DNA from: Thermotoga sp.
GTDB taxonomy: Bacteria > Thermotogota > Thermotogae > Mesoaciditogales > Mesoaciditogaceae
Direction of reading: 5' to 3'
Assembly (NCBI GenBank): GCA_020722015.1
Contig: DYLQ01000001.1
Coordinates: 50,231 to 114,230 of the forward strand
DNA length: 64,000 nt
Shown: piece after piece, positions 4,349 to 26,170 of the stretch
Numbering within the stretch: the first letter of the stretch is position 1
How the letters are laid out: every line of letters starts with the position of its first letter
Program-made: the position numbers and the translations under genes
Notes under the pieces: model-generated
The model's database searches: none
What the model was told of the DNA's origin: nothing
Seen by the model: only the letters and a program-made list of their open reading frames with translations

Positions 4349-5257
4349 TTGCCAAACTTTGAAGAGATAGAAGAACTTGAAACTGAGAAATCAAACCCTA
4401 AAACTTTAGAAATAGATACAATGGATCCTCTTTCAATTTCAAAAATTATGAACGAAGAAGACAAAAAAATAGCGCTGGCAGTCGAAAAAGTTTTAGAACC
4501 GATATCGAAGCTTGCAGAAAAGATATCAGATGCGATAAAAGGTGGGGGAAGATGTGTTTACGTTGGAGCCGGCACTTCAGGTCGTGTTGCTATGATAGAC
4601 GCGGTTGAGACAGTGCCAACGTTCGATTTACCGGTCGGAACTTTTATGACAATTTTGGCTGGCGGACCTGATGCGATGATAAGGTCCTTGGAAAATGTTG
4701 AGGATGACTGGGGAGGTGGTGCTAAGGAGATCGTTAAAAACGGAATTTCATACAAAGATGTCGTTGTCGGAATTTCGGCAAGCGGAAGGACGCCTTTTGT
4801 CATGGGCGCAATTGAAAAAGCGAAACAACTGGGAGCCATAACCGGATCTGTGTCAAATGTCAAAAACGCTAAGTTGTCTTCTATGGTTGATATATCCATA
4901 GAAGTCGTAACCGGTCCTGAAGTAGTCACGGGTTCAACACGTCTCAAAGCCGGAACAGCACAGAAAATGGTTTTAAACATGTTAAGCACGATCTCGATGA
5001 TAAGGCTTGGTAAGGTATACAAAAATCTCATGGTCGACGTTACACCTATAAACGAAAAGCTCGTCATAAGGGCGATAAATATAATCGTCAATGCAACCGG
5101 GATATCCAAAGAGAAAGCTGAAATGCTTTTAAGAGAATCCAAAATGAGACCGAAGGTGGCCATAGTAATGGCCTTAACCAATTCTTCTTTAAAAGAAGCA
5201 GAGAAATTGCTTGAGAAGAGTTCTGGAAGTGTGAGGAATGCGATAAAAAAAGTTTAA
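4349..5257 (+). CDS. murQ: N-acetylmuramic acid 6-phosphate etherase
   Basis: VYVGAGTSGRVAMIDAVETVPTF, GISASGRTPFV, GPEVVTGSTRLKAGTAQKMVLNMLST; TTG start after GGAGGTG. Confidence 0.95.
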   Translation: MPNFEEIEELETEKSNPKTLEIDTMDPLSISKIMNEEDKKIALAVEKVLEPISKLAEKISDAIKGGGRCVYVGAGTSGRVAMIDAVETVPTFDLPVGTFMTILAGGPDAMIRSLENVEDDWGGGAKEIVKNGISYKDVVVGISASGRTPFVMGAIEKAKQLGAITGSVSNVKNAKLSSMVDISIEVVTGPEVVTGSTRLKAGTAQKMVLNMLSTISMIRLGKVYKNLMVDVTPINEKLVIRAINIIVNATGISKEKAEMLLRESKMRPKVAIVMALTNSSLKEAEKLLEKSSGSVRNAIKKV

Positions 5258-5296
5258 TTATCCCAGCAATGGGAATTTTAGATTGGAGGGTTGAAA

Positions 5297-7072
5297 ATGA
5301 ATAAAAAGGTATTGGCAATTTTAATGATTTTATCTGTCATTTCCTTTGTTGTGCTTGCGGCCTTGCCATCTGATCCTTTCACCGAAGCATCTAATCTTTT
5401 TCAAGGACCCGGAAAATACGGTGGAACGTTGTATTTAGTGCTCGGATCTGAACCTCAATCTTGGAACTATTATGGAACTTTGTCTGCTGCAGCATACACT
5501 GTTGATGGTGAATTGTTTAGTCCTCTTGTACAAGCCAACCCAATAACAAATGAAGTTGAACCAGCTTTAGCTTCAAGTTGGGAAATTTCTTCAGGTGGAA
5601 CAGAGGTTATTTTCCATCTAAGACATGTTTTGTGGTCAGATGGAGTTCCGTTTACGGCTGATGATGTGCTCTTTACCTTCAACGACGTTGTGATGAATAA
5701 ACATGCATTGGGAAATGAATGGGATAGATTCACAATAGACGGTACGCCTATTAAATGGGTGAAAATAAACAATTACACAGTCGCGGCATTACTTCCAAAA
5801 CCTTATGGCGCTTTTTTTTCTGTTTTAGAGCCGGCTTTTATCCTGCCTGAACACATACTCGCTAAATATTTACCAAAATACAATCCTAAAGTTACGGACC
5901 CTTCTTATTATAATCAGGCGTGGACCGTAAGTACTCCTCCCGATCAAATTGTTGGAACGGGACCTTATGTACTTGAAAAATACATACCAGGCCAAGAAGT
6001 TATTCTAAAGCGAAATCCAAATTTCTGGGAAGTCGATCCTTACGGAAATCAGCTTCCATATTTTAACGAATTGGATTTTCTAATAGTCAAAGATCCTCAA
6101 ACACAACTTGCAATGTTTCAATCAGGACAAATAAGTTGGCTTGGCATAAGTGCTTCTCAGTTCCCATACCTCAAGCAAAAGCAACTATCTGGAGCTCCCT
6201 TTATTGTTTATAACACACTTTCAAGTGGTCAAGCAACTCCTCATCCTTTTATAACTTTCAATTTTGATGATAAAAATCCTAATCTAAGATCGCTATTTAG
6301 AAATTTACAGTTCAGAGAAGCAATGGAATATGCACTTGATAGAAATAGAATAATAAACGAAGTATACAATGGCCTTGCAAATTTTACGGGAGATATACCT
6401 GCTGTTTTACCGGGAAACGTGTTTTACGATCAAGCAGCATCGTCTCTTGCAAGGAATTTTAATCTTGATGCCGCAAACGGAATATTGGATTCTCTTGGGC
6501 TCAAAATGGGGCCAAATGGCATAAGGCAATTTTCTGACGGTCAGCCAGTTGAGTTTAATCTTCTTACATGGGCCAATAGCCCAACTATGGCTGGAATAGC
6601 CCAAATATACCAAAAAGATTTAAAACAGATAGGAATAAAGTTGAATCTACAGATATTGGATATCAGTGTTACATATCAATTAGCACTCGCAGGTAATTTC
6701 GATGCGGCTTTGTTAAGTTGGGGAGATCAGCCAGATCCCGCTTTGAGAACTCCTATATGGAGTCCCGGATACCCACTTTATATAAATCACCTTTCTACAA
6801 TGGAAGCTAACACTCAAAAGCCATTGTTTGATCATATGCTTTGGTGGGAAAAGATCGTATATAACGATTTTGCTCAAGGTCAGGCTCAGATGACACTTGC
6901 AGAAAGGGTAAAATATTACGATCAGTGGGAAGAGATTTATGCGACAGAGATCCCATATATTTTTGTTGCCGTTCCAAATACGCTTATAGCTGTTCAAAAT
7001 AACATAGGTAATTTCTTTATAGCTAAAAATGGTCAGATAGCATTTACAACCTATACGACATTTTTGAAATGA
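5297..7072 (+). CDS. Peptide/oligopeptide-type ABC transporter substrate-binding protein (family 5 SBP)
   Basis: Signal peptide MNKKVLAILMILSVISFVVLAA; ALASSWEISSGGTEVIFHLRHVLWSDGVPFTADDVLFTF; VGTGPYVLEKY. Confidence 0.92.
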   Translation: MNKKVLAILMILSVISFVVLAALPSDPFTEASNLFQGPGKYGGTLYLVLGSEPQSWNYYGTLSAAAYTVDGELFSPLVQANPITNEVEPALASSWEISSGGTEVIFHLRHVLWSDGVPFTADDVLFTFNDVVMNKHALGNEWDRFTIDGTPIKWVKINNYTVAALLPKPYGAFFSVLEPAFILPEHILAKYLPKYNPKVTDPSYYNQAWTVSTPPDQIVGTGPYVLEKYIPGQEVILKRNPNFWEVDPYGNQLPYFNELDFLIVKDPQTQLAMFQSGQISWLGISASQFPYLKQKQLSGAPFIVYNTLSSGQATPHPFITFNFDDKNPNLRSLFRNLQFREAMEYALDRNRIINEVYNGLANFTGDIPAVLPGNVFYDQAASSLARNFNLDAANGILDSLGLKMGPNGIRQFSDGQPVEFNLLTWANSPTMAGIAQIYQKDLKQIGIKLNLQILDISVTYQLALAGNFDAALLSWGDQPDPALRTPIWSPGYPLYINHLSTMEANTQKPLFDHMLWWEKIVYNDFAQGQAQMTLAERVKYYDQWEEIYATEIPYIFVAVPNTLIAVQNNIGNFFIAKNGQIAFTTYTTFLK

Positions 7073-7082: not shown

Positions 7083-7104
7083 GGGCGAGTACATATACTC
7101 GCCC
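7083..7104 (+). repeat. Intergenic hairpin after the SBP gene
   Basis: GGGCGAGTA-CATA-TACTCGCCC, perfect 9-bp stem, then TTTACTT. Confidence 0.75.
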
Positions 7105-7124: not shown

Positions 7125-8096
7125 ATGCTGTCTTATATAATTCGTAGAATATTAATAATGATTCCAATGATGTTTGTAATCTCTGTGATATGTTTCACGA
7201 TTATAAAGTTACAACCTGGAAGTTATATAAGTCAATATCTCGAAAATGGCAGAGTATCTCCACAGACTGTCCTCATGTTGAAGAAAACTTTAGGTCTGGA
7301 TAAACCAGCGATAGAACAATATTTTTACTGGTTGGGTAATATAGTTTTGCACGGTAATTTTGGATATTCTTTTGCCTATCAAATGCCAGTAACAGATCTG
7401 ATATGGCAATATATGGGATGGACAGTTGTTGTCTCTCTGCTTTCAATGGCCTTCACGTGGCTCTTAGCCATACCATTGGGAATTTATTCGGCACGTCATA
7501 GGTATGGAGTAGGTGATTATGCGGCAACTTTCTTAGGATACATTGGAATGTCAATACCAGACTTCTTTTTGGCGTTATTGTTAATGTATTTAGCTCTATC
7601 ACTTGGTAGTCGATCGGTGGGAGGACTTTTTTCAGTCCAATACGTTGGAGAACCATGGTCAGTTGGAAAATTCATAGATTTATCTAAACATCTTTGGATA
7701 CCAATGATAGCCATAGGCGCAGGTGGCATAGGGGGACTTATGAGGATCATGCGTGGCAACATGATGGACGTTTTGAATTCTCCGATGATCCTATCTTTAA
7801 AAGCACGCGGTATAGGAGAAAAAAATGTAACATGGAAACATGCCGTGAAAAATGCGGTAAATCCATTAGTAACAATAGCTGGCATGTCGTTGCCAGGCGT
7901 TTTTAGTTCTACGATAATTGCTTCAATTGTTTTAAATATACCTACGATGGGACCATTTTTCTATAGTGCTTTGATGAATCACGATCAATATCTTGTAATG
8001 GCTTATCTTTTGTTACTCGCACTATTGCTTCAAATTGGTAACTTGCTTGCGGATATAGCACTTGCGTTTGTTGATCCACGCATAAGATACACTTGA
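7125..8096 (+). CDS. ABC transporter permease, DppB/OppB type
   Basis: MLSYIIRRILIMIPMMFVISVICFTIIKLQPG; MRIMRGNMMDVLNSPMILSLKARGIGEKNVTWKHAVKNAVNP (EAA loop). Confidence 0.93.
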   Translation: MLSYIIRRILIMIPMMFVISVICFTIIKLQPGSYISQYLENGRVSPQTVLMLKKTLGLDKPAIEQYFYWLGNIVLHGNFGYSFAYQMPVTDLIWQYMGWTVVVSLLSMAFTWLLAIPLGIYSARHRYGVGDYAATFLGYIGMSIPDFFLALLLMYLALSLGSRSVGGLFSVQYVGEPWSVGKFIDLSKHLWIPMIAIGAGGIGGLMRIMRGNMMDVLNSPMILSLKARGIGEKNVTWKHAVKNAVNPLVTIAGMSLPGVFSSTIIASIVLNIPTMGPFFYSALMNHDQYLVMAYLLLLALLLQIGNLLADIALAFVDPRIRYT

Positions 8097-8106
8097 GGTG
8101 AATGCT

Positions 8107-9216
8107 ATGAAAAAGAAGGATAATTCTAAAGAAGTGACCGATTTTCAAAGGATGTTAAAAGTACTTTTAAAGAATCCCTTTAGCGTCGCCGGAATGATAA
8201 TACTTGTGATAATGTATTTGATGACTCTTTTTGCTCAATTTATATCTCCGTATAATTTTACAGATATGCATAAATACTTATATTTACCTCCTACGCCTAT
8301 ACATTGGATCGGCCCGAACGGAAATTTTCATATAATACCTTTTGTTTATGGAGTAAAAGAAGAAAGAAATCCTATAACGTATGCAATGGAGTTTACCGTC
8401 GATAAAAGCGAAATATATCCGATACATTTTTTTGTGCGCGGTGAAAGTTATGAATTTTTAGGATTATTTAAGACAAATGTACATTTATTCGGTATAAATC
8501 CAAATGCTCATGGAATGATCGCACTTTTTGGAACTGATAGATATGGACGGGATTTGTTTTCAAGAACGATAGTTGGTGGCCAGGTGTCAATGACAGTGGG
8601 ACTTCTTGGAATAGCCATAAGTTTTGCAATAGGAATAATCATAGGCTCTTTATCCGGATATATAGGTGGAACATTTGATCTGATAATACAAAGATTTATA
8701 GAAATACTTATGTCTTTTCCAACCTTGCCTTTATGGCTTGCACTTAGCATGATAATTCCTCCGAGTTGGCCTTCTACATGGGTATATTTTGGAATTGTAA
8801 CTGTACTTTCTCTTCTGGGTTGGACAGGTCTTGCAAGGGTTATAAGAGGAATGACACTAAGTATAAAAGAAAAGGATTTTATTTCTGCTGCCAAATTATC
8901 TGGTCAGACAAGATTGAAGATAATAATTCACCATATATTGCCAAACATCATGAGTTATATAATCGTTGTGGCTACTTTATCAGTTCCTGGAATGATTCTT
9001 GCAGAAAGTGCTATGAGTTTCCTTGGCCTTGGTATAAAACCGCCAATGACAAGTTGGGGATTGCTTTTAAGTGATGCCGAAAGCCTTGAATCAATAGAAC
9101 TTCATCCTTGGTTTTTGATTCCAGGTTTATTCATAATAATTGCCGTGCTTTCGTTTGTGTTTGTTGGCGATGCTTTAAGGGATGCATTTGATCCTTATCA
9201 GTATGAAAGAAAGTAA
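8107..9216 (+). CDS. ABC transporter permease, DppC/OppC type
   Basis: LFGTDRYGRDLFSRTIVGGQVSMTVG; LARVIRGMTLSIKEKDFISAAKLSGQTRLKIIIHHILPN; AESAMSFLGLGIKPPMTSWG. Confidence 0.93.
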   Translation: MKKKDNSKEVTDFQRMLKVLLKNPFSVAGMIILVIMYLMTLFAQFISPYNFTDMHKYLYLPPTPIHWIGPNGNFHIIPFVYGVKEERNPITYAMEFTVDKSEIYPIHFFVRGESYEFLGLFKTNVHLFGINPNAHGMIALFGTDRYGRDLFSRTIVGGQVSMTVGLLGIAISFAIGIIIGSLSGYIGGTFDLIIQRFIEILMSFPTLPLWLALSMIIPPSWPSTWVYFGIVTVLSLLGWTGLARVIRGMTLSIKEKDFISAAKLSGQTRLKIIIHHILPNIMSYIIVVATLSVPGMILAESAMSFLGLGIKPPMTSWGLLLSDAESLESIELHPWFLIPGLFIIIAVLSFVFVGDALRDAFDPYQYERK

Positions 9217-9226
9217 GGTGTTGAAT

Positions 9227-10201
9227 TTGGCATTACTTACAATGAAAAATGTTACCATTACTTTTAAAACAAGTAGAGGAGATTTGTTAGCAATAGATGA
9301 TATTTATTTTGAATTAAACAAGGGAGAAACTCTTGGCCTGGTAGGAGAGACTGGATCTGGTAAAACTGTAACCTCTCTTTCCATAATGAGATTACTTCCA
9401 TTCAACGCAAAAATTTCAGGAGAAATATTCTTCGATAAAACAGATATCTTAAAACTTTCTGAAAATGAAATGGATGAAATAAGAGGAAAAAAAATATCCA
9501 TGATATTTCAGGAACCGATGACGGCATTTGATCCACTTTTTACCATAGGCCAACAATTTTCTGAAGTCCTGCTTAAACATGAGAATGTTAGTAAGGAAGA
9601 AGCGAGGCAAAGGACAATTAAGATGCTTAAATTCGTTGGAATCCCAGAACCAGAACAGCGCTTTAATCAATATCCACATGAATACAGTGGCGGTATGATT
9701 CAAAGAGTTATGATAGCACTTGCTTTATTGACAAATCCAGAGCTTGTCATTGCTGATGAACCTACAACAGGTCTTGATGTAACTATACAAATGCAAATCT
9801 TGAACCTTATGAAAAAAATTCAGAAAACATCAAACTTATCTATGATATTTATAACACACGATCTTGGAGTGATATCCAAAATGGCAAACAAAATAATCGT
9901 CTTATATCTTGGAAAGATACTTGAAATTGGTACTGTTGCAGATGTAATTTTTTCTCCAATCCATCCATACACAAAGGGCTTAGTCTCATCGATTCCAACT
10001 CTTAGAACAAACAAATCTGAAAGACTTTATTCTATCCCAGGAAATGTTCCTTCTTTAAATGAAATAGGGAAGGGATGTAGATTTTATTCAAGATGCCCAG
10101 TTAGAATGGATATATGTAAAGACAAAACACCTCAATTATCTGAATATAATAGTGGACATTTTGCAGCTTGTTGGGTTGCTAATAAAAATAAAGTTGGGTG
10201 A
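9227..10201 (+). CDS. ABC transporter ATP-binding protein, DppD/OppD type
   Basis: Walker A GETGSGKTVTS, signature YSGGMIQRVMIA, Walker B LVIADEPTT, RCPVRMDICKDKTPQL C-terminal motif; TTG start at 9227 after AAGGTG is preferred (ORF opens at 9182). Confidence 0.92.
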   Translation: MALLTMKNVTITFKTSRGDLLAIDDIYFELNKGETLGLVGETGSGKTVTSLSIMRLLPFNAKISGEIFFDKTDILKLSENEMDEIRGKKISMIFQEPMTAFDPLFTIGQQFSEVLLKHENVSKEEARQRTIKMLKFVGIPEPEQRFNQYPHEYSGGMIQRVMIALALLTNPELVIADEPTTGLDVTIQMQILNLMKKIQKTSNLSMIFITHDLGVISKMANKIIVLYLGKILEIGTVADVIFSPIHPYTKGLVSSIPTLRTNKSERLYSIPGNVPSLNEIGKGCRFYSRCPVRMDICKDKTPQLSEYNSGHFAACWVANKNKVG

Positions 10202-10207: not shown

Positions 10208-11194
10208 ATGAATGAAGAACTTATAATTGCTGATAATTTAAAAGTATACTTTCCCATTCGACGTGGCATTTTTTTACAAACAATCGGTTACGTAAAAGCC
10301 GTCGATGGAATAAATTTAACTGTGATGAAAAATCAAGATCTTTCAATAGTTGGCGAGAGCGGAAGTGGGAAAACAACGTTGGGTAAAGCTATAGTTGGTC
10401 TTATAAGGCCGACAAAAGGTAACGTTTTTTACATGTTCAACAACAAAAATTTTGATATGTCACAAAATTTACCGATAGAAATTAGACAAAGTGTTCAAAT
10501 GATCTTTCAAGATCCGTTTTCATCGCTTAATCCAAGATTGAAAATTATAGATACTTTAAAAGAAGCACTTGAAATAAGAAATATTTTCAAATCAAGAAAT
10601 GACATAATTGATTATCTTGGAGATTTACTTCAAAAAGTAGGGCTTAAACGAGAATACTTATACAGATATCCACATGAATTTAGTGGTGGGCAAAGGCAAA
10701 GAATATCCATTGTAAGAGCAATCTCAATGAAACCAAAAGTAATAGTTCTTGATGAACCAACATCGTCTTTAGATGTTTCAGTTCAATCCCAAGTTTTAAA
10801 TTTACTTCAAGACATAAAAAGAGAATATGATTTAACTTACATTTTTATAACTCATAACATATCTGTGGCAAAGTATATGGGGCAAAAAATAGCTGTGATG
10901 TACTTGGGCAAAATTGTTGAAATAAATGAAGCGGATAATTTGATAAATGCGCCACTTCATCCTTATACCAAATTGTTGCTTTCAGCGGTTATTGAAGTTC
11001 AAAGTGAACACGTTGAAAAAGAATTGAAAATTGGAGAACCTCCGAGTCCTGTAAATATCCCATCTGGTTGTAGATTTAGAAACCGTTGTCCTTTTGCTAT
11101 GGAAATATGCGAAAGAACCGAACCAGAACTTATTGAACATGAAAACGCATTGGTGGCATGTCATTTATACTCAGATCTCAAAAATAAGCCATAA
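10208..11194 (+). CDS. ABC transporter ATP-binding protein, DppF/OppF type
   Basis: GESGSGKTTLGKAI, FSGGQRQRISI, VIVLDEPTSSLD, CRFRNRCPFAMEICERTEPEL. Confidence 0.93.
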   Translation: MNEELIIADNLKVYFPIRRGIFLQTIGYVKAVDGINLTVMKNQDLSIVGESGSGKTTLGKAIVGLIRPTKGNVFYMFNNKNFDMSQNLPIEIRQSVQMIFQDPFSSLNPRLKIIDTLKEALEIRNIFKSRNDIIDYLGDLLQKVGLKREYLYRYPHEFSGGQRQRISIVRAISMKPKVIVLDEPTSSLDVSVQSQVLNLLQDIKREYDLTYIFITHNISVAKYMGQKIAVMYLGKIVEINEADNLINAPLHPYTKLLLSAVIEVQSEHVEKELKIGEPPSPVNIPSGCRFRNRCPFAMEICERTEPELIEHENALVACHLYSDLKNKP

Positions 11195-11364: not shown

Positions 11365-13083
11365 ATGAAAAGATTTTGGTTATTCGTTATTGTCGGAGTT
11401 ATATTGAGTGTTTCCGTTTTTGCCGCAGGATCATATTCATATCTCGCTCAATATGGTCCTGGAATTGTCAATTGGGGACCAAATGTCAAATCCGGAGGGA
11501 CTTTGGTTTTGGCAGAAGGTCAAGGCACCGAAATGCCTTACAACATCAATCCGTTATCTCCGTTTCCATTGCAAATAACGCCGTTGATATACGAGCCGTT
11601 GTTCTACGTTAACGAGGCAAATGGAGCCGTAACGGGTTTGCTTGGAACTAAATACGAATGGACAGATAATAACCTTGAATTGGTTGTGACGACAAGAAGC
11701 GGCGTTAAATGGTCAGATGGGAAATCTTTCAGTGCGTCCGATGTTGTCTTTACGTTTAATCTCTTAAAAAAATATCCGTCAATGGACAGCAGCGGAATAT
11801 GGTCCAATGTTTCGGGTCTTCAAAGCGTAGCGGCAAGCGGAACGAATACCGTCATCTTCAAGTTTTCAAAGCCCAACGTACCGCAATTCTTCTACATAGC
11901 AATGCAGCCAATTGTGCCGGAGCATATATGGGCAAATATCAAAGATCCGACGACTTACACAAATCCAAACCCTGTTGGAACGGGTGCGTTTCTTTTCAAA
12001 AGTTATACGCCGTCCAATGGAGACGAGGTTGTCGTTAAAAATCCGAATTATTGGATGAAAGGCAGACCGTATATCGATGAATTGGTGATCAAAAGTATGT
12101 TGACAAATCAATCCGCTTTTCTCGAATTACTCAAAGGCAATGCGCAATGGGGAGAATTTTACGCTCCGGACCCACAAACGACATGGATTGCAAAGGATCC
12201 TCAAAATAACAAGATATGGTGGCCGGCTGAAGGCTCAAACGCGTTGTTTTTCAACACACAGGCTGGATTTCCCTTTAGCAACGCCACTTTCAGAAAAGCC
12301 ATTTCCATTGCCATAAACAAGAAAGATCTTGAAGACAAAGCTTATTTTGGAGCCGGCGGTTACAATGTAAGCCCAACCGGGATAATTCCGTCACAACAAA
12401 AAGAATGGATGGATCCGACCTTAACTGCTATGGCGTCTGAACTTAACACTTACAATCCGCAAAAAGCCGTTGAAATGCTCGCATCGATTGGAATTGTAAA
12501 GAATTCTTCTGGTCAACTTGTTGGACCGAACGGAAAAGCACTTCCATCTTTGACGATCAGCGTTGTTTCCGGATGGACAGATTTCATAACGATGGCGAAT
12601 ATTATATCGAGCGAATTACAATCGATGGGATTCAACGTTGTTGTGAATCAGGAAACTTATAACAGCTTCATTTCAAGCCTGATGAGCGGAACTTATCAAA
12701 TGGCTCTTTGGGGATTAAACGGTCCTGCTCCTTATTACATATATTATGCCAATTTCAATCCAACGCTTTCGGCCACTAAGATAGGGGCAACGGCAATTTC
12801 GGGTTACACCAGATACACCAATCCTTTGATAACGGCGGCATTAACAACATATGCTCAGACGACAAATCTTAGACTTCAACAGCAGGCAATGTACACGATA
12901 GAAAGAATAATCCTTTCGGAAATGCCGTTTGTCACATTGACAAATTCAACTGGATTCCAATTTTTCAACACGAAGACATTCACGGGCTTTCCGTCTAACG
13001 ACAACATCTATTCGGCAAGTGGATCTCTTGAACCTGGGTCTTATGATGGATACATCGAGGCACTGAACGTACATTTGAAATGA
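11365..13083 (+). CDS. Family 5 ABC substrate-binding protein (orphan paralog 2)
   Basis: Signal peptide MKRFWLFVIVGVILSVSVFAAG; RSGVKWSDGKSFSASDVVFTFNLLKKYPSMD; FRKAISIAINKKDLEDKAYFGAGG; C-terminus ALNVHLK. Confidence 0.92.
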   Translation: MKRFWLFVIVGVILSVSVFAAGSYSYLAQYGPGIVNWGPNVKSGGTLVLAEGQGTEMPYNINPLSPFPLQITPLIYEPLFYVNEANGAVTGLLGTKYEWTDNNLELVVTTRSGVKWSDGKSFSASDVVFTFNLLKKYPSMDSSGIWSNVSGLQSVAASGTNTVIFKFSKPNVPQFFYIAMQPIVPEHIWANIKDPTTYTNPNPVGTGAFLFKSYTPSNGDEVVVKNPNYWMKGRPYIDELVIKSMLTNQSAFLELLKGNAQWGEFYAPDPQTTWIAKDPQNNKIWWPAEGSNALFFNTQAGFPFSNATFRKAISIAINKKDLEDKAYFGAGGYNVSPTGIIPSQQKEWMDPTLTAMASELNTYNPQKAVEMLASIGIVKNSSGQLVGPNGKALPSLTISVVSGWTDFITMANIISSELQSMGFNVVVNQETYNSFISSLMSGTYQMALWGLNGPAPYYIYYANFNPTLSATKIGATAISGYTRYTNPLITAALTTYAQTTNLRLQQQAMYTIERIILSEMPFVTLTNSTGFQFFNTKTFTGFPSNDNIYSASGSLEPGSYDGYIEALNVHLK

Positions 13084-15469: not shown

Positions 15470-15515
15470 AAAGGCACTCTGTTAAATCCATTTGGCCTTT
15501 ACAAGAGAGGTAAAT

Positions 15516-16652
15516 ATGAAGATAAAAATTGGAATAGAAAATTTTGTTCAAAACGTTAAAATCCAAAAGCATTTCGCGCTTCTCACAAATCCAACCGGAA
15601 TCTCGAGCGATTTGAAAGCGGACCTTGATTTGCTTGTAGAAAACAACGTAAATGTTGTAAAACTTTTTGGTCCGGAGCATGGTATTTCGGGAGCGGAAGC
15701 AGATGGAATAAAGGTTGAAAATGAAGTAGAACCAAGGTATAAAATTCCCATTTATTCTCTTTACGGCAGCCATCTAAGACCGACTGACGAAATGTTGGAC
15801 AGAGTGGATGCCGTTATCTACGACATTCAAGATGTTGGTCTTAGATTTTACACGTACATCTACACACTTGCTTACATGATGGAAGAATGCGGAAAACGTG
15901 GAATCAAGGTGATTGTACTTGACAGGCCAAATCCACTTTCTGCAAAAATTGAAGGTCCTGTCATAAAAAAGAAATTCGAATCATTTGTAGGAGGTTATGG
16001 ATTGCCGCTTAGATATGGCCTTACAATCGGAGAGCTTGCAACTTATTACAACGACTTTTTCAAGATGAATGTCGATCTTGAAGTTGTTAAAATGGAAGGT
16101 TGGTCTTCGATGTATTACGATGAAACGGGACTTTTATGGAATACACCGTCTCCAAATCTACCTTCACTTGAGCACACGATACTTTACGAGGGATTTTGCT
16201 TGCTTGAGGGAATAAACGTGTCTGTGGGTCGTGGCACTGTCCATCCTTTTAAGTACATAGGGGCTCCGTGGATGGATGATCGAATTTATGAAGAGATGCA
16301 AAAAATTCCGCATCCTGGAATCGAATTCAGAAAAAGAGCGTTCATACCGCTGACATCAAAATACAAAGATGAAAGGTGCAATGGTCTTGAATTCTTTGTA
16401 ACGGACAGAAACAAGATAAGGCCGATCGAATTTGCGCTGAACTTCATCCGAATCATTAAAAATACATATCCTCAAAAATTCGAATGGGAAATCGCAAACG
16501 GAAAATATCATTTCGATCTTTTGATAGGAGACGCAAAGTACAGAGAAGGTATTGATGAAGGTCAAAGTGGAGAGGATTTATCTAAACTTTGGATCGATGA
16601 AGTTAGGGAATTCAAACGAATTGCTTCGAAATATTTCATTTATAGAAGGTGA
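15516..16652 (+). CDS. namZ: DUF1343 / NamZ-type exo-beta-N-acetylmuramidase
   Basis: FALLTNPTGISSDLKADLDLL, LFGPEHGISGAEADG, PIYSLYG, DAVIYDIQDVGLRFYTYIYTLAYMMEE, LDRPNPL, WNTPSPNLPSLEHTILYEGFCLLEG; ATG 15516 with AGAGAGG RBS. Confidence 0.9.
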   Translation: MKIKIGIENFVQNVKIQKHFALLTNPTGISSDLKADLDLLVENNVNVVKLFGPEHGISGAEADGIKVENEVEPRYKIPIYSLYGSHLRPTDEMLDRVDAVIYDIQDVGLRFYTYIYTLAYMMEECGKRGIKVIVLDRPNPLSAKIEGPVIKKKFESFVGGYGLPLRYGLTIGELATYYNDFFKMNVDLEVVKMEGWSSMYYDETGLLWNTPSPNLPSLEHTILYEGFCLLEGINVSVGRGTVHPFKYIGAPWMDDRIYEEMQKIPHPGIEFRKRAFIPLTSKYKDERCNGLEFFVTDRNKIRPIEFALNFIRIIKNTYPQKFEWEIANGKYHFDLLIGDAKYREGIDEGQSGEDLSKLWIDEVREFKRIASKYFIYRR

Positions 16653-17989: not shown

Positions 17990-19690
17990 ATGAAAAAGTC
18001 TTTTGTTTTCGTCGTTTTAGTTTTAGCGATGGTAGTTTCGCTCTTTGCAACCAACAGCTTGGATACAAACACACAAGGTGCAATCATGCCAACAAACACG
18101 TCTTACAAGTATGGTGGAACGGTTTTTGTGGTAAATTCGGGCCTTCAGACTCCCTTTAGCATAAACCCACTTTCTCCTCAGGCCCAATTGCCAGTTGTCC
18201 CAGAGATCTATGAATCTCTCTTTTACGTTAACAGCATAACAGGTCAGATAACACCACTACTTGGAACAAAATATTCGTGGGAAGATGACAACTTAAAGTT
18301 AGTCGTCACAACGAGAAAAGATGTCAAGTGGAATGATGGTTTTGATTTCACCGCAAATGATGTTGCTTTTACATTTAACTTAATAAAGAAATATCCGTCC
18401 TTTGACACAAGTGGGATTTGGAAAAATTCCGGTCTTGAAAGTGTAGAAGCTTCTGCAAATACAGTTATTTTCTCATTCTCCAAGAAAAACACACCTTTGA
18501 TTATCAACATTTTTGAGCAATATATAGTGCCAGAGCACATATGGTCAAAGATCAACGATCCGATGACTTTTACAAACACAGATAATCCTGTTGGAACAGG
18601 ACCCTTTCTCTTCAAAAGCTATTCTCCAGACAATCAAACTGCGGTGATCGCCCAAAATCCGAACTATTGGATGCCCAACAGACCTTACGTTGACAAAGTC
18701 GTTATACAAAATGTCAATTCGAACAATACAACTCTACTTATGATGCTCAAACACGAAGCTGACTGGGGATCATCATACTTTCCGGATATAATGAACGTAT
18801 GGGTGAACAAAGATCCAGAAACGAATAAGATCTTCTGGCCTGTGAATAATTTTAACGCGCTCTACGTCAACACTCAAAAATATCCATTCGACAATCCAAC
18901 GTTCAGGAAGGCCATTTCTTTTGCAATAGACAAGAATGATGTTGAGCAAAAGGCTTACTTTGGCATAGGTGGTGTGGCAAACCCCACAGGTATAGTTCCT
19001 GCTCAAATAAATGAGTGGTTAGATCCAACTTTGACCGCTCTTGCTTCTGAATTAAATACCTACTCTCCTCAAAAGGCTGAGAGTTTGCTTGCCTCTATAG
19101 GTTTTAAGAAAAATTCAGCTGGTCAGCTCACAGATCCAAGTGGAAAAGTTCTACCCACATTTAAAATTCTCGTCGGTGCTGGATGGACTGATTTCATAAC
19201 TCAAGCTCAAATAATATCCGAAAATCTTTCGAAGATTGGAATAAGTACCGTCATCGATCAAGCACCATGGTCTGCGTACATTTCGTCTTTGATGAGCGGT
19301 ACTTATGATATGGCGGTATGCTGGGGTGTTTCAGGTCCTACTCCTTATTACGTTTATTATCAAAGACTGAACCCAGCTTTTTCGGCCTCAAAGATCGGCG
19401 AATCGGCCTTGTCCAATTATTCGAGATACACGAATCCTTTGATAACAGATGCCCTTAAAGTTTACGCTCAAACAAGCGATCTCAGACTTCAAAAACAGGC
19501 CATGTACACAATCGAAAGAATAATTCTCGATGATGTACCATTCATTCCTCTCACCAACAGAACGAATTTTTCGAATTTCAGCGCAGAAAAATTCGTTGGA
19601 TGGCCATCCGATTCCAATCCATATTGCGCTGGCGGTACAACAAATGGTCAGGGTGGAGAGATCATCCTTTTGAATATTCATCTAAAATAG
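17990..19690 (+). CDS. Family 5 ABC substrate-binding protein (orphan paralog 3)
   Basis: Signal peptide MKKSFVFVVLVLAMVVSLFA; RKDVKWNDGFDFTANDVAFTFNLIKKYPSFD; close by eye to the 11365 paralog; C-terminus LLNIHLK. Confidence 0.92.
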   Translation: MKKSFVFVVLVLAMVVSLFATNSLDTNTQGAIMPTNTSYKYGGTVFVVNSGLQTPFSINPLSPQAQLPVVPEIYESLFYVNSITGQITPLLGTKYSWEDDNLKLVVTTRKDVKWNDGFDFTANDVAFTFNLIKKYPSFDTSGIWKNSGLESVEASANTVIFSFSKKNTPLIINIFEQYIVPEHIWSKINDPMTFTNTDNPVGTGPFLFKSYSPDNQTAVIAQNPNYWMPNRPYVDKVVIQNVNSNNTTLLMMLKHEADWGSSYFPDIMNVWVNKDPETNKIFWPVNNFNALYVNTQKYPFDNPTFRKAISFAIDKNDVEQKAYFGIGGVANPTGIVPAQINEWLDPTLTALASELNTYSPQKAESLLASIGFKKNSAGQLTDPSGKVLPTFKILVGAGWTDFITQAQIISENLSKIGISTVIDQAPWSAYISSLMSGTYDMAVCWGVSGPTPYYVYYQRLNPAFSASKIGESALSNYSRYTNPLITDALKVYAQTSDLRLQKQAMYTIERIILDDVPFIPLTNRTNFSNFSAEKFVGWPSDSNPYCAGGTTNGQGGEIILLNIHLK

Positions 19691-19714: not shown

Positions 19715-19732
19715 TTGATAAAGAGGTGTGAT

Positions 19733-21316
19733 ATGTCAGAAAAGGTTGAAATACTTTTAAAATCCATGAGTAACGAAGAAAAGATAGGACAGATCATGAT
19801 ATGCGGATTTGATGGTACCGTACCTTCTGATCACATAAAAAGTCTCATAAGAGATTATCATCTTGGTAACGTGATCCTTTTCAAAAGAAACATAGAAAGT
19901 GCTCATCAGGTTAAAAAACTAACCTCTGAATTACAAAGGATATCGAAAATACCTCTTACAATGGCAATCGATCAGGAAGGAGGCATAGTTACACGTTTGA
20001 CAGAACCTTTTACCGTTTTTCCGGGCAACATGGCAACGGCTGCCACAAATGATCCAAACAACGCATATTTAACAGGTCTTGTCATGGCAAAAGAAATGCG
20101 CGCAGTAGGGCTTAACTGGAATCTTGCGCCTGTTGTCGATGTGAATGATTTGCCACAAAATCCTGGAATAGGAGTCAGAAGTTATTCTGACGATCCTAAA
20201 GTCGTTGCGAGATACGCATCCGAATTTGTGAGAGGCCTTCATGATGGCCATGTGGCGGCATGCGCAAAGCATTTTCCCGGAAAGGGGCATAGTTCAAAAG
20301 ATGCTCACTTTGAGATGCCTGTTGTGGACAGAACATTAGACGATCTTGTCAGAATAGAACTTTATCCATTCAAAGAGCTTATAAGAGATGGTGTTGATTC
20401 CGTAATGCCTTCTCACGTTTATTACCCTGCACTTTGTGAAAGTGAAAACATGCCTGCAACTTTGTCATCTTCTGTCATGACCGATTTGCTCAAAAAGCAA
20501 ATGGAATTTGGCGGAGTTACGGTTACCGATGATCTTGAGATGGGTGGGATAACAGGTAACCTAAAAGCTTACGAAGCGGCTTGGAAATCTCTGCTTGCCG
20601 GGGCTGACATGTTGATGGTATGCCATACCTTTGAACAGCAAGTTAAAACTTTTGAAAACTTAATTCAAATGGTCAAATTCGGCGATATGCCCATTGAAAG
20701 GGTCAATGATGCGGTAAGGCGTGTACTTACGATGAAAGAAAATCTCGGCCTTCTTGACGGGAAATTGATCATAGAATCGGAGATAGGATCAGCAGAGAAT
20801 CTTGAAATTGCGCAAGATATAGCGAAAAAATCCATAACGCTTGTGAGAAATATGGATAATCTGATCGACAAAATTGGAAACACGAGAGTATTGCTGATCT
20901 TTCCAAGAGATCTTGCCATCACCAATGTAGAAGAAAACACCGGTGGTATTTCCGAGATCGAGAAAATCTTCAAAGAAAAAGATAAAAAGATAGAAGCTTT
21001 TTACATATCTTCAAAGCCAAAAGCAGATGAGATAGAGGAAAGCGTGAAAATGTTAGATAACTTCAATGGTATCGCCATCATAGGAACGCTCAACGCTCAT
21101 CTGATAGAGGAATGGAAAAGATTGGTCGATGCTGTTACCAACGTAAAGCCTGAGTCAACTCTGATATTATCCCTTAGAAATCCATACGACTGTGTTATGA
21201 ATGGTGTAAGAAACTCAGTTGCACTTTACAATTATTCTTCACTGTCTCAAAGGGCCTTCGCCGAAATGGTATTAAATGGCGAAAAATTTACCGGGAAGGT
21301 CCCGATCATGTTATGA
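19733..21316 (+). CDS. nagZ: Beta-N-acetylglucosaminidase, GH3 (NagZ type)
   Basis: AIDQEGGIVTRL, KHFPGKGHSSKDAHFEMPVVDR, VTVTDDLEMGGI; no signal peptide; start ATG 19733 after GAGGTGTG. Confidence 0.92.
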   Translation: MSEKVEILLKSMSNEEKIGQIMICGFDGTVPSDHIKSLIRDYHLGNVILFKRNIESAHQVKKLTSELQRISKIPLTMAIDQEGGIVTRLTEPFTVFPGNMATAATNDPNNAYLTGLVMAKEMRAVGLNWNLAPVVDVNDLPQNPGIGVRSYSDDPKVVARYASEFVRGLHDGHVAACAKHFPGKGHSSKDAHFEMPVVDRTLDDLVRIELYPFKELIRDGVDSVMPSHVYYPALCESENMPATLSSSVMTDLLKKQMEFGGVTVTDDLEMGGITGNLKAYEAAWKSLLAGADMLMVCHTFEQQVKTFENLIQMVKFGDMPIERVNDAVRRVLTMKENLGLLDGKLIIESEIGSAENLEIAQDIAKKSITLVRNMDNLIDKIGNTRVLLIFPRDLAITNVEENTGGISEIEKIFKEKDKKIEAFYISSKPKADEIEESVKMLDNFNGIAIIGTLNAHLIEEWKRLVDAVTNVKPESTLILSLRNPYDCVMNGVRNSVALYNYSSLSQRAFAEMVLNGEKFTGKVPIML

Positions 21317-22362
21317 ATAGGCTCGATGAGATCTTTCAAGATGCAATATCGGACGGTACATTTCCGGGTGGGGTGTTACTCGTCGGAGACCATGAACGCG
21401 TACGCTTTGAAAAATCATACGGCACTTTATCAAAAGATTCTAAAGAGGATGTATCCATCGATACGGTGTATGATGTGGCTTCAATGACCAAAGTTGTGGC
21501 AACAACGCCAGCCATCATGAAATTGATCGAAGACGGAAAATTAAGATTGTACGATCCTGTAAAACTTTTCGTCGATGGATTTGAGACAGACGAAAAGAGA
21601 GAAATAAGAATTTTTCATCTTCTCACACATACATCCGGCCTTCCTCCCTATTCTGAAGGATGGAAATATGCGCGAGATCGAGAATTATTGAAAATCATAA
21701 ACTCAACGGTTCCAATAAACCCAATCGGCACGAAGTACGTTTATTCTTGTCTGAACTTCATAACTTTGATGGAAGTTGTTGAGAATATAACTTCTCGCAA
21801 ATTCGATGATTTTGTCATGTCAGAAATTTTCAATCCTCTTGAGATGGTCTACACGACGTTTAAACCACCAAAAAACTGGAAAATAGCACCTACATCGGAG
21901 AGAGAAGGGAGGATCTTGCGCGGAGAAGTCGATGATGAACTTGCATATTATTTAGGCGGTGTAAGTGGCAACGCAGGACTCTTTTCAAATGCAAGAGATC
22001 TTTACAACTACGCAAAAATGTACCTTAATTCTGGTAAGCACGGCGATCGAAAGATCTTCGCGAAAGAAACGATAGACACTTTTACACGCGAAACTTTTAA
22101 CGATGGGCAAAATCGTAGAGCACTCGGTTGGGACATGAAGGGATTGGCATGTTCTTGCGGAGATCTTATGACTAATAAAGCCTTTGGCCATACTGGGTTT
22201 ACTGGCACTTCCATATGGATAGATCCAGAAACAGATGTAATTGTGATCTTGCTTACAAACAGAGTGAACATTTCAAGAAGAGAAAATCAAGACAAGATCA
22301 TAAGATTCAGACCATTAATCCATAACTACATCGTGGCAAATATGGAGGCTCTCGGTGAATGA
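21313..22362 (+). CDS. Class C beta-lactamase-related serine hydrolase (candidate AmiE-like MurNAc-L-Ala amidase)
   Basis: SMTK (SxxK), HLLTHTSGLPPYSEGW, GHTGFTGTSIWIDP; ATGA overlap with the nagZ end. Confidence 0.85.
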   Translation: MNRLDEIFQDAISDGTFPGGVLLVGDHERVRFEKSYGTLSKDSKEDVSIDTVYDVASMTKVVATTPAIMKLIEDGKLRLYDPVKLFVDGFETDEKREIRIFHLLTHTSGLPPYSEGWKYARDRELLKIINSTVPINPIGTKYVYSCLNFITLMEVVENITSRKFDDFVMSEIFNPLEMVYTTFKPPKNWKIAPTSEREGRILRGEVDDELAYYLGGVSGNAGLFSNARDLYNYAKMYLNSGKHGDRKIFAKETIDTFTRETFNDGQNRRALGWDMKGLACSCGDLMTNKAFGHTGFTGTSIWIDPETDVIVILLTNRVNISRRENQDKIIRFRPLIHNYIVANMEALGE

Positions 22363-23488
22363 AATAGAGTACCTTAAAGAGATAATCGATAAGCACGAAA
22401 GGAAGATCCTCGGGATGATGTCGGGAACATCTGCAGATGGCGTTGATTTGGTTTTGGTGTCCGTAAGTGGATGTTCAAAGTCGACGAGATGCACGATAAA
22501 AAATGCTCTTCACGTTGATTATCCGGATGAGCTGAAAAAAAAGATCTTGAAGGCCATGGAAGATAATGCACTGATGAGAGACGTGTGCAGTTTGGATTTT
22601 GAATTAGGTGAATTCTTCGGAGATTGCGCCAAAAGCTTTAAGTACGAAAAGGTCGATTTGATCGCAAGCCACGGCCAGACCGTTTATCATAATCCACCAG
22701 GTCATAATTCTCATCCGTGCACACTTCAGATTGGAGATGGGGATATAATAGCCATGAAATCCGGTGTCATTACCATTTCAGATTTCAGAATAAAAGATAT
22801 GGCATCAGGAGGAGAAGGCGCACCTCTGGTTCCTCATGCCGATTACTTACTTTATTCGAGCGACAAAGAATCTATAGCCATAAACAACCTTGGCGGTATT
22901 TCAAACGTTACGTACATTCCAATCAACGCAAATGAAGATGAGATAATCGCTTTTGACACAGGACCGGCAAATGCCCTTATGGATTTGATAACAAGAAAAT
23001 ATTTTAATTTACCTTACGATAAGGACGGAGCAATTTCTGCAAATGGCAAGATCGACGATGAACTTTTTGAAGCGCTTAAGTCGAAAGAGATGAGTTACAT
23101 TCTCAGAACGCCTCCAAAATCGACGGGAAAAGAGGTTTACAACGAAGGATATATACCGGAAAACTCACTCGATCCTCACGATTTGTTAAGAACGACGGTT
23201 AAATTCACGGCATGGAACATTTATGAATCCTACAAATTGCATGTAATTCCAAAAGGCCTCGATAGAGTTGTACTCACCGGAGGTGGTGCCATGAACAAGA
23301 TCTTAGTTGACGATATAAGAAAATATTTTGGCAAAATACAGGTTGAAATATCAGAAAATTGGCAATGGAGAGAAGCTGAAGCCTTTGCCATTCTTGCAAA
23401 CGAACTGCTTTGTGGTAACCATTCAAACAATCCAAAAGTTACCGGCGCTAAACGCTCAGTGTTGCTGGGGAAAATTTCTTTACCTTGA
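22355..23488 (+). CDS. anmK: Anhydro-N-acetylmuramic acid kinase
   Basis: GMMSGTSADGVDLVL, SHGQTVYHNPP, FDTGPANALMD, VLTGGGAMNKILVDDI. Confidence 0.94.
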   Translation: MNEIEYLKEIIDKHERKILGMMSGTSADGVDLVLVSVSGCSKSTRCTIKNALHVDYPDELKKKILKAMEDNALMRDVCSLDFELGEFFGDCAKSFKYEKVDLIASHGQTVYHNPPGHNSHPCTLQIGDGDIIAMKSGVITISDFRIKDMASGGEGAPLVPHADYLLYSSDKESIAINNLGGISNVTYIPINANEDEIIAFDTGPANALMDLITRKYFNLPYDKDGAISANGKIDDELFEALKSKEMSYILRTPPKSTGKEVYNEGYIPENSLDPHDLLRTTVKFTAWNIYESYKLHVIPKGLDRVVLTGGGAMNKILVDDIRKYFGKIQVEISENWQWREAEAFAILANELLCGNHSNNPKVTGAKRSVLLGKISLP

Positions 23489-23500: not shown

Positions 23501-24235
23501 ATGAAGATAGATAGAAAGGATCCAATGCCAATCTATCATCAAATATACAGGGATCTCAAAGAAAGAATAGAAAAAGATCTGAAATTTGGAGAGTATCTTC
23601 CATCCGAAGATGAATTGGCAGATCAATACGGCGTGAGCAGGCTTACGGTAAGGCAAGCCTTGAAAAATCTCATGGAAGATGGAATAATAGAAAAACAAAG
23701 GGGAAAGAGATCCAAGATAAAAGAGGCAAAAAACATCGAAAATTTATCCCAACTGAAGGGTTTTACTCAAGACGCTATGCTTTTGGGTCATACTCCGTCT
23801 TCGATAGTGCTTGCCAACAAACTTGTCAACGTTCCAGATCAAATCTTCGATAAATTCAAAGTCCCAAAGGGGTCTAAAGTTATCCTTCTGAGCAGATTAA
23901 GATTACTTGACGATGTCCCATATGCCATAGAAATGGCTTACATAAATGTCTCGGTTGATGTTAAGTTGTTAAACATTCTCGACATGGATATGTCAAAATC
24001 CTCACTTTACGCTTTTTTCAAAGATGAAGTCGGCCTCAAATTAGAGTATGCAGATGAGACCATAGAAGTTGTACAGGCAAGTTCTGAAAATGCAAAACTT
24101 CTCGGAATACAGAATGGAAGTTGCATATTGTTGAGAAACAGATTTACGTATACGCATGACGGTCAATGTATTGAGCACGTTCAATCGTACTACCGAAGTG
24201 ACAAATACAAATTCAACATACGTATAAGATCATGA
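23501..24235 (+). CDS. GntR/HutC family transcriptional regulator with UTRA domain
   Basis: PMPIYHQIYRDLKERI...LPSEDELADQYGVSRLTVRQALKNLMEDGIIEKQRGKRS; C-terminal EHVQSYYRSDKYKFNI. Confidence 0.93.
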   Translation: MKIDRKDPMPIYHQIYRDLKERIEKDLKFGEYLPSEDELADQYGVSRLTVRQALKNLMEDGIIEKQRGKRSKIKEAKNIENLSQLKGFTQDAMLLGHTPSSIVLANKLVNVPDQIFDKFKVPKGSKVILLSRLRLLDDVPYAIEMAYINVSVDVKLLNILDMDMSKSSLYAFFKDEVGLKLEYADETIEVVQASSENAKLLGIQNGSCILLRNRFTYTHDGQCIEHVQSYYRSDKYKFNIRIRS

Positions 24236-24244: not shown

Positions 24245-25150
24245 ATGATAGCCATAGGAATAGATGGAGGAGGATCGAAAACAGACTTTTGTCTCTACGA
24301 TGAAAGCGGAAAAATATTAAACACCTTACTTTTAGACGAACCTTCAAATTATCACCTTGTAGGAGTTGATAAAGTAAGATCTGTTATATCCGAAGGCATT
24401 AAGAAAGTTTCACAGAATTATTCTTTCGATGTTGTCGGTGCCGGTTTAAGCGGCGTAGATAGAGATGCGGACAAAAGCAAAATGGAATCCATCTTTAAAG
24501 CACTCGATATAAAAAAATTCTTCATACAAAACGATGGAGTTGCCGCTCTTTGGGGGGCGACAGGTGGTGTTGGTATTTTGGTCATAGGTGGTACAGGATC
24601 TATAGCGATTGCAAGAAATGAAGACGGTAAGATTAACAGGGCCGGAGGTTGGGGCTATGCTTTTGAAGAATATTGCGGCGGATATTGGTTCGTTACCAAA
24701 GCGATAAAAGCACTGCTTGATCACAAAGATGGTTTGGAAATAGGATCAATACTTGAAGGAAGATTGACCGAATTCTTTGAAGTTAAAAAGGTAGAAGATC
24801 TGATCTATCTTTACTATTCTGGTGAGTTTGATAAGGCAAAAATATCTTCTGGATCCAAAATTGTCCTTGAGGCAGCACAAGAAGGAGATGAACTCGCGAT
24901 GTTGATTTTAAAAGATGGACTCGAGAACGTCATGAAGATGATAGCTGTACTCGATAAACGCTCACAATTTTCTGGAAAATTCATCTTTTCTTACACTGGA
25001 GGCGTTTTTAAATCTGAATATTTCTTGAAAAGGTTCAAAAGAGTATTTGAAATTTATTTTCCACTGGCAACCTTTACAGAGCCGAAATTCACCCCGTCTG
25101 TCGGAGCGGCTATGATGGCAATTCACGAATCGAAAGTTCAGTTTGAATAA
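24245..25150 (+). CDS. BadF/BadG-type sugar kinase (GlcNAc/MurNAc kinase, MurK-like)
   Basis: MIAIGIDGGGSKTDFCLYDE, GAGLSGVDRD, QNDGVAALWGATGG, VIGGTGSIAIA, GGWGYAFEEYCGGYW. Confidence 0.88.
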   Translation: MIAIGIDGGGSKTDFCLYDESGKILNTLLLDEPSNYHLVGVDKVRSVISEGIKKVSQNYSFDVVGAGLSGVDRDADKSKMESIFKALDIKKFFIQNDGVAALWGATGGVGILVIGGTGSIAIARNEDGKINRAGGWGYAFEEYCGGYWFVTKAIKALLDHKDGLEIGSILEGRLTEFFEVKKVEDLIYLYYSGEFDKAKISSGSKIVLEAAQEGDELAMLILKDGLENVMKMIAVLDKRSQFSGKFIFSYTGGVFKSEYFLKRFKRVFEIYFPLATFTEPKFTPSVGAAMMAIHESKVQFE

Positions 25151-25192
25151 TACACAACAAATGGTTTCGGGTATTTCAAGAGGTGTTGAAAA

Positions 25193-26170
25193 GTGAAAAA
25201 GCATGAATTTCTCGATGTAATTGATCGTACGATCGGAGATAAAAGGCTGTTCTTTTACGGTTTTGAGGTTTTGGAAGAAGGAGAAAGGTTGATCGTCAGC
25301 GGTTTTATAGATACTCATGATACCCTTAACTTGATCTTAAAAAACGTTGAAGACGTTGTTTTTCAAGTGAAAATCCTCGAAGATATGATATCTCCTGCCT
25401 TGGCTGCCGGAATGGTTATAATTCCCGTTGCCGATATGAGAAAAGATCCAAGGTTTCGTACCGAAAGAGTACATCAATTGATCTTTGGAGAATTCGTAAA
25501 AGTCCTCATGTTTGAAAATGAATACGCACTTGTCAAAGATGTAAGGACTGGCTTTATCGGTTACATTCAGAGATCGCACATGATCTTTTTCCCGAAAGAT
25601 ACGATAACCGAACTTAAAGAGAATGGAACACAGATAACCGTAAGTGAAAGATTTTCTAAGATTGAAATCAACGATCAAGAAATCTTCATTCCGTTTGGTT
25701 CCAAATTATTTGCGTTAGAGTCGGAAAAATTTTGGCATCTTTCTTTGCCAAATCGGCTTACGGTAAAAATACGCGCAGAGGATGTTTCTACCAAGACCAC
25801 TTTTGAAGATGTCGAGAAGAAATGGCATCTATTTTTGGGAACTCCTTACCTTTGGGGAGGAGCTTCTGCTTACGGTTACGATTGCTCCGGCTATGTTGGC
25901 AGACTTTACGATTATGCTAACATTAAGATACCCAGGGATGCAGATCTTCAACAGAATTTTTCGCACAAAATAGAAGAAAAAGATGTAAGATTCGGAGATC
26001 TCATCTTCTTCCCAGGCCACGTTGGAATGTACGTGGGAGATGGAAATATGGTACACGCAAATCTCACTTACGGGGGAGTCAGCATCTCACGAATTTTGAA
26101 TCCCCAAAATAGATATGAAGAAAATCTCAGAAAAAGCATTTTAAAATTCGGAAGAGTTATCGAAACTTAA
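25193..26170 (+). CDS. NlpC/P60 family peptidase (dipeptidyl-peptidase VI / YkfC-like)
   Basis: LGTPYLWGGASAYGYDCSGYVGRLYDYANIKIPRDADLQ ... FGDLIFFPGHVGMYVGDGNMVHAN; no signal peptide. Confidence 0.9.
   Translation: MKKHEFLDVIDRTIGDKRLFFYGFEVLEEGERLIVSGFIDTHDTLNLILKNVEDVVFQVKILEDMISPALAAGMVIIPVADMRKDPRFRTERVHQLIFGEFVKVLMFENEYALVKDVRTGFIGYIQRSHMIFFPKDTITELKENGTQITVSERFSKIEINDQEIFIPFGSKLFALESEKFWHLSLPNRLTVKIRAEDVSTKTTFEDVEKKWHLFLGTPYLWGGASAYGYDCSGYVGRLYDYANIKIPRDADLQQNFSHKIEEKDVRFGDLIFFPGHVGMYVGDGNMVHANLTYGGVSISRILNPQNRYEENLRKSILKFGRVIET

Follow-up and report, generated by a model that had tools for sequence, protein, structure and literature searches.

A probable peptidoglycan-fragment salvage operon with its own ABC importer in a member of the Thermotogota

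Does a long run of co-oriented genes in a thermotogal genome form a single route for the uptake and dismantling of cell wall fragments and, if it does, what does its importer carry? The question is raised by a 64,000-nt stretch of contig DYLQ01000001.1 (hereafter the window, to which all coordinates refer) from a Thermotoga sp. of the Mesoaciditogaceae (GCA_020722015.1; assembly of 1.93 Mb, 96% complete), in which positions 4349-26170 hold an island of genes for N-acetylmuramic acid (MurNAc) and N-acetylglucosamine (GlcNAc) metabolism together with an ATP-binding cassette (ABC) importer of the DppBCDF type. Peptidoglycan salvage is known mostly via AmpG in Proteobacteria, the phosphotransferase system (PTS) permease MurP in Bacillus, Staphylococcus and E. 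coli, and YejBEF-YepA in Alphaproteobacteria. We conclude that the best explanation of the island as a whole is a catabolic operon for the salvage of peptidoglycan fragments, with import by DppBCDF followed by cytoplasmic digestion (probability roughly 0.8). That the island is a peptidoglycan salvage operon in the broader sense is very probable, and it is probable that the importer carries MurNAc-containing fragments. We infer the substrate and the source of the fragments, the individual reactions and the co-transcription of the genes.

The preliminary description of this DNA, made from the sequence, had listed the gene families of the island and proposed a complete import-and-disassembly pathway in about 22 kb of co-oriented genes. 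Open reading frames and profile searches placed all 18 genes on the plus strand, with every named family matched (Table 1). The intergenic gaps are, in order, 33, 52, 1, -35, 6, 170, 55, 12, 22, 3, 11, 24, -4, -8, 12, 9 and 42 bp; 16 of the 17 junctions are at or below 55 bp, and the sole larger one lies upstream of the second of three family-5 solute-binding proteins (SBP1 to SBP3). Curated equivalog cut-offs were exceeded by MurQ (337.6 bits versus 302, TIGR00274), NagZ (236.6 versus 207, NF003740) and AnmK (395.3 versus 387, NF007148), and further matches were obtained to NamZ_N and NamZ_C, BcrAD_BadFG, Beta-lactamase, Transglut_core, NLPC_P60, SBP_bac_5 (three times) and BPD_transp_1 (twice). 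The DppB permease is 93-94% identical to those of Athalassotoga saccharophila NAS-01 and a related bin, and the gene order is syntenic in A. saccharophila (loci L036, L102 and L188), minus SBP2 and the GNAT gene, both of which are therefore regarded as accessory. Permuted versions of the island were found repeatedly across Thermotogota families, and given this recurrence and the A. saccharophila synteny the arrangement exceeds chance.

The importer was the component whose membership in the pathway was most in need of evidence. A first look gave up to 29 candidate DppB stretches per Thermotogota genome. The many family-5 ABC transporters of this phylum, and the NlpC/P60 and transglutaminase-like peptidases in the operon, would suit a plain oligopeptide importer that lies beside the MurNAc genes by chance, or a carrier of free murein tripeptide only. 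Linkage, defined as a distance of at most 15 kb from namZ, murQ or anmK, was scored in 103 Thermotogota genomes, in which NamZ was found in 52, AnmK in 51 and MurQ (above its cut-off) in 55. DppB matches fell into two classes, one of 38 places in 36 genomes at 56-100% identity and the next at 47% or less. Linkage was scored for 28 of the 38 upper-class places but for none of the 105 lower-class ones (Fisher p ~1e-21). Related genomes are not independent samples, and the figures to rely on are therefore those with one count per genus (11/14 versus 0/31, p ~4e-8). Consistent with this linkage, the 36 importer-bearing genomes had NamZ in 35, MurQ in 35 and AnmK in 31. The same split appeared in a separate scan of named genomes, where murQ, namZ, nagZ or anmK was present in the fetched flanks of 22 of 38 close DppB relatives (54-94% identity) and of none of 42 more distant ones. 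The DppB contrast within the phylum rules out chance adjacency of the importer and the mur genes. Moreover, no match to PTS_EIIC or to the AmpG family was found in the whole assembly, as had been suggested for MurP and AmpG, and the glycan-cleaving enzymes look cytoplasmic (see below), so that glycan must enter. A plain oligopeptide importer is consequently very unlikely, and the conserved linkage and co-occurrence give good support to the earlier view of the island as a single pathway served by an ABC importer of its own.

The close DppB relatives form one clade (support 93/84) with members in Thermotogota, Bacillota and Spirochaetes, and wherever the position before dppB is in view, loci of the importer clade almost always have an SBP1 ortholog there. 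In Halanaerobium saccharolyticum, for example, the genes follow one another as RpiR-type regulator, murQ, SBP1, dppB, dppC, namZ, amiE, badF, nagZ and anmK. The Yej/Yep and MppA-Opp systems, which had been put forward as precedents, may work alike, but the window importer is of another family. Its permease scored 111 bits against the YejB model (cut-off 445) and 225 bits against its top model, Opp4B, also under the cut-off (450), whereas its ATPases, two separate genes instead of a YejF double ATPase, scored 279 and 259 bits against the YejF model (cut-off 834); these NCBIfam scores rule out membership in the Yej family. The Agrobacterium YejBEF-YepA system (PMC9790009) likewise has an ABC importer with a family-5-type SBP in the place of AmpG, but the window importer differs from it in its Opp4/Dpp-type permease and ATPases, its separate DppD and DppF, its genes being co-encoded with those of the digesting enzymes, and its distribution in Thermotogota, Bacillota and Spirochaetes as opposed to Alphaproteobacteria. 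In the open-access literature, which leaves most subscription journals uncovered, we found neither a published MurNAc or muropeptide importer in Thermotogota nor a description of this importer clade, which is apparently previously undescribed.

Two Bacillota loci of the importer clade that have no namZ or murQ (L117:5585-8072 and L123:4146-6740) carry genes for an APH-type kinase and an alpha/beta hydrolase directly upstream of SBP1. L117 has in addition a GNAT gene upstream of SBP1 and a diaminopimelate-dehydrogenase-like gene downstream, and its APH-type kinase had no NCBIfam match. These loci are possibly another branch for murein fragments, perhaps an AmgK-like one.

With regard to the place of digestion, hydropathy indicated no hydrophobic N-terminus on NamZ, NagZ, the AmiE-like hydrolase, the transglutaminase-like protein or NlpC/P60, while all three SBPs have one. 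Among homologs in the fetched loci, a hydrophobic N-terminus was likewise absent from 53 of 55 NamZ, 24 of 27 NagZ and all 20 AmiE-like proteins. Since the hydrolases have no signal-peptide-like N-termini, disassembly is probably cytoplasmic; if all of them act inside, fragments of disaccharide size or larger would have to be imported, for which an ABC importer fits better than a MurNAc PTS. The signatures of these enzymes are intact, namely KHFPG-x6-D-x-H and VTDDL in NagZ, DCSG/HVGMY/VHAN in NlpC/P60, GDCG/HDWAYF/VDPSF in the transglutaminase-like protein and SMTK/YSCLN in the AmiE-like (beta-lactamase-type) hydrolase, as are the motifs of AnmK. The predicted structure of the transglutaminase-like protein, computed from a two-sequence alignment, was too poor for use (mean predicted local distance difference test, pLDDT, 42).

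Among characterized systems, the B. subtilis dpp-ykfABCD set for murein peptides comprises a Dpp-type importer, the NlpC/P60 protein YkfC, an L-Ala-D/L-Glu epimerase and the LdcA-type YkfA. The island shares the importer and NlpC/P60 with this set, but its epimerase is encoded on another contig and an LdcA-type protein was not found. Cytoplasmic NagZ, AnmK and MurQ are shared with AmpG/NagZ/AnmK/MurQ recycling in E. coli, from which the island differs in that AmpG and LdcA were not found and that NamZ and a BadF kinase are added. Another likeness is to the B. subtilis murQ-murR-murP-amiE-nagZ-ybbC(namZ) operon (PMC5061867), which also unites MurQ, an AmiE-type hydrolase, NagZ and NamZ; the combination of this Bacillus-type set with AnmK, as first described, is present, AmiE being recognized at the family and motif level only. 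Unlike the B. subtilis operon, the island has an ABC importer for PTS MurP, a BadF kinase for PTS phosphorylation, a GntR/UTRA regulator in place of the RpiR-type MurR, and AnmK. In addition, its hydrolases have no signal peptides, whereas in B. subtilis muropeptides are broken down extracellularly by the sequential action of AmiE and NagZ (PMC5061867).

The best solved relative of the BadF kinase is the MurNAc/GlcNAc kinase 8zo3 (E 4e-35), the MurK of Clostridium acetobutylicum; the window kinase shares the BadF-family fold with this enzyme and with MurK of Tannerella forsythia (PMC10465942). Set against published structural criteria for MurNAc binding in MurK kinases (PMC10465942), which bear on the space that the active site offers to the lactyl ether, it gave a mixed match: its GGWG loop is without the bulky Glu/His, but EEYCG replaces GDEGS and an Asn precedes the catalytic Asp, as is also the case for the Asn in 8zo3, a known MurK. 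A dual MurNAc/GlcNAc role is likely.

AnmK had been taken as typical of Gram-negative bacteria, but it is also encoded on Priestia, Enterococcus, Deinococcus and haloarchaeal plasmids, which rules it out as a sign of Gram-negative ancestry. A Priestia megaterium plasmid (L197, NZ_CP041065.1) holds AnmK, MurQ, a BadF kinase, MurR/RpiR and GntR regulators, PTS genes and a DUF871 (MupG-type) protein together. Thermotogota have an outer toga. One SLT-type lytic transglycosylase was identified in the genome, in which MltG was not found, and given the toga and this enzyme anhydroMurNAc is to be expected.

The island holds candidates for every step from fragment to GlcNAc-6-phosphate. However, to call the pathway complete, as had been done, is too strong, since NagA (contig C88) and a Thermotoga-type L-Ala-D/L-Glu epimerase (contig C62; 549 bits versus a cut-off of 500) lie outside the island and LdcA was not found. 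In the pathway that we propose, SBP1, and perhaps also SBP2 and SBP3, would bind soluble periplasmic fragments of glycan or muropeptide type, and DppBCDF would import these intact. In the cytoplasm, the stem peptide would be shortened by NlpC/P60 and the transglutaminase-like enzyme and released from MurNAc by the AmiE-like hydrolase, while NagZ and NamZ would alternately remove GlcNAc and MurNAc from the non-reducing end. Chain ends that lytic transglycosylase has produced would be converted to MurNAc-6-phosphate via AnmK, and the MurK-like BadF kinase would phosphorylate free MurNAc, and probably GlcNAc too. MurQ would then convert MurNAc-6-phosphate to GlcNAc-6-phosphate and D-lactate, and NagA would lead GlcNAc-6-phosphate towards glycolysis.

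The binding proteins bear on a second explanation, in which chitooligosaccharides or other GlcNAc oligosaccharides are the main cargo of the importer and SBPs and are cleaved by NagZ, with the MurNAc genes acting in turnover of the cell's own wall as part of the same regulon. Murein glycan, too, is a beta-1,4-linked chain like that of chitin. The best solved relatives of SBP2, of which SBP3 is a paralog, are the Vibrio chitin oligosaccharide-binding proteins (1zty, 6lzw; E 7e-65 to 1e-63), but unlike the genes of those proteins, the SBP2 and SBP3 genes sit among MurNAc genes. SBP1 is only 28-29% identical to SBP2 and SBP3. In sequence and in its AlphaFold model (pLDDT 88; nearest folds SPH1118, AppA and MelB) it is closest to pectin- and galactoside-binding proteins and to the oligopeptide-binding AppA, and the model suggests a fold that could accommodate glycans as well as peptides, glycans being somewhat favoured. 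The resemblance of SBP1 to pectin- and galactoside-binding proteins and of SBP2 to the Vibrio proteins would fit such a mixed amino-sugar island. However, SBP2 and the neighbouring GNAT gene are the accessory ones, the conserved unit SBP1-DppBC tracks NamZ and MurQ, and family searches of the island genes revealed no chitinase-type gene. We therefore consider this explanation unlikely.

A further alternative concerns the source of the fragments, not the mechanism: the importer might serve solely to recover the anhydromuropeptides that the cell sets free with its own lytic transglycosylase, as recycling instead of feeding. The SLT enzyme in the genome, AnmK in the operon and the lack of a detected AmpG agree with this, and YejBEF-YepA of Agrobacterium provides a precedent (PMC9790009). 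Against it, MurQ belongs to a degradative route, only MurNAc that is not in the anhydro form calls for NamZ and a MurK-like kinase, and the set is present in only about half of Thermotogota, though all turn over a wall; moreover, an analogous set is carried by haloarchaea, which have no murein. Exclusive recycling is thus possible but the less favoured source, as the MurQ route and the substrate-type regulator tilt us to catabolism.

Haloarchaea make no murein, and the set there should therefore serve foreign walls or a related polymer. On plasmids of Haladaptatus salinisoli (L193, NZ_CP085329.1), Halorussus halophilus (L195, NZ_CP044525.1) and Halorussus vallis (L196, NZ_CP100002.1), genes for AnmK, an AmiE-type hydrolase, NamZ/DUF1343 and NagZ adjoin one for an ABC substrate-binding protein. 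ABC permeases and an ATPase are also in view in the first two, and H. vallis also has a peptidoglycan-recognition-family protein. The haloarchaeal DppB is only 26% identical to that of the window, which indicates that this importer was recruited independently, outside the window's clade. By analogy, the haloarchaeal islands support a nutritional reading of such islands generally, not of the window island specifically.

Several observations weigh against salvage by this importer and cytoplasmic digestion. The importer lies away from namZ, murQ and anmK in 3 of the 14 genera (in two of these, G057 and G005, amiE or nagZ adjoins it), and 16 of the 38 named importer loci have no mur gene in the fetched DNA, many of them on short contigs. 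SBP2 and SBP3 lean to chitooligosaccharides, and neither fold nor sequence of an SBP fixes its ligand. The absence of signal peptides was called by a hydropathy heuristic and not by a trained predictor. No LdcA (S66) match was obtained in the organism's own genome, which is 96% complete, and the kinase differs from the known MurKs in a diverged GDEGS motif, EEYCG standing where GDEGS is usual.

Taking both sides into account, we give slightly better than an even chance to a broader proposal. In it, SBP1-DppBC(DF) is an as yet undescribed clade of ABC importers dedicated to the uptake, in intact form, of glycan or muropeptide fragments that contain MurNAc, and Thermotogota share this clade with Halanaerobiales and other Bacillota and with some Spirochaetota. 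It would feed a largely cytoplasmic NamZ/NagZ/AmiE/AnmK/MurK/MurQ line and let anaerobes draw part of their nutrition from the walls of other bacteria. If true, this would add a further salvage route and explain cell wall use by anaerobes without PTS or AmpG. A candidate importer is available in A. saccharophila NAS-01, a thermophile that can be cultured and whose genome is complete, and the island is a source of candidate heat-stable enzymes for muropeptide chemistry.

Table 1. Features of the island and its candidate regulatory signals, in window coordinates.
Feature	Position	Strand	Basis or remark
murQ, MurNAc-6-phosphate etherase	4349..5257	+	TIGR00274 above curated cut-off
SBP1, family-5 SBP of importer clade, hydrophobic N-terminal signal	5291..7072	+	PF00496
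dppB-type permease	7125..8096	+	PF00528; top NCBIfam model Opp4B
dppC-type permease	8098..9216	+	PF00528, OppC_N
dppD-type ATPase; real start probably past 9216	9182..10201	+	PF00005, oligo_HPY
dppF-type ATPase	10208..11194	+	PF00005, oligo_HPY
SBP2, chitooligosaccharide-binding-type family-5 SBP	11365..13083	+	PF00496; solved relatives
Major facilitator superfamily (MFS) transporter, substrate not assigned	13139..14443	+	PF00083/PF07690; not AmpG
GNAT acetyltransferase, accessory	14456..15469	+	PF13527
namZ, exo-beta-N-acetylmuramidase family (DUF1343), no signal peptide	15492..16652	+	PF07075 and PF20732; hydropathy
Transglutaminase-like putative cysteine peptidase, no signal peptide	16656..17978	+	PF01841; triad motifs; hydropathy
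SBP3, family-5 SBP	17990..19690	+	PF00496; 57% identity to SBP2
nagZ, beta-N-acetylglucosaminidase (GH3), no signal peptide	19715..21316	+	PF00933, NF003740 above cut-off; motif; hydropathy
AmiE-like serine hydrolase (beta-lactamase fold), putative MurNAc-L-Ala amidase, no signal peptide	21313..22362	+	PF00144; motifs; hydropathy
anmK, anhydro-MurNAc kinase	22355..23488	+	PF03702, NF007148 above cut-off
GntR/UTRA regulator	23501..24235	+	PF00392 and PF07702; kept in mur clusters
BadF-family kinase, MurK-like, likely MurNAc/GlcNAc kinase	24245..25150	+	PF01869; solved relative 8zo3; motif comparison
NlpC/P60 peptidase, SH3-like region, putative gamma-D-Glu-diamino-acid endopeptidase, no signal peptide	25193..26170	+	PF00877; solved relative 3h41; hydropathy
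Candidate operator TTGTATATATACCAA, near-palindrome	4304..4319	.	Directly downstream of TATAAT-like box, before murQ
Hairpin after SBP1	7083..7104	+	Similar hairpin after SBP2, 13091-13112

The operon would be under the control of its GntR/UTRA regulator, a type common to many Thermotogota mur clusters. The core of TTGTATATATACCAA is kept upstream of murQ in two relatives (L101 and L102), and we treat this element as a lead only. A scan for promoters and terminators gave a number of hairpins near the shuffle expectation; those after SBP1 and SBP2 could set an excess of these SBPs over the products of the downstream genes.

Directly past the island, at 26281-28123 and not counted as part of it, a 3H-domain/HTH_11 repressor gene precedes one for an MFS transporter, probably a pair for niacin regulation and transport. 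From the reading of open reading frames, two neighbouring proteins at 29759-33072, encoded on opposite strands, have phosphoenolpyruvate-carboxykinase-like P-loops, GLSGTGKTTL and GDSGTGKSET, of which the latter protein may be a diverged paralog with a different role. A galactoside-use cluster was read in the same way on the minus strand at 53910-63923, and its members include a galactokinase-like protein, a galactose-1-phosphate uridylyltransferase-like protein, two large glycosidases and a MalEFG-type ABC transporter.

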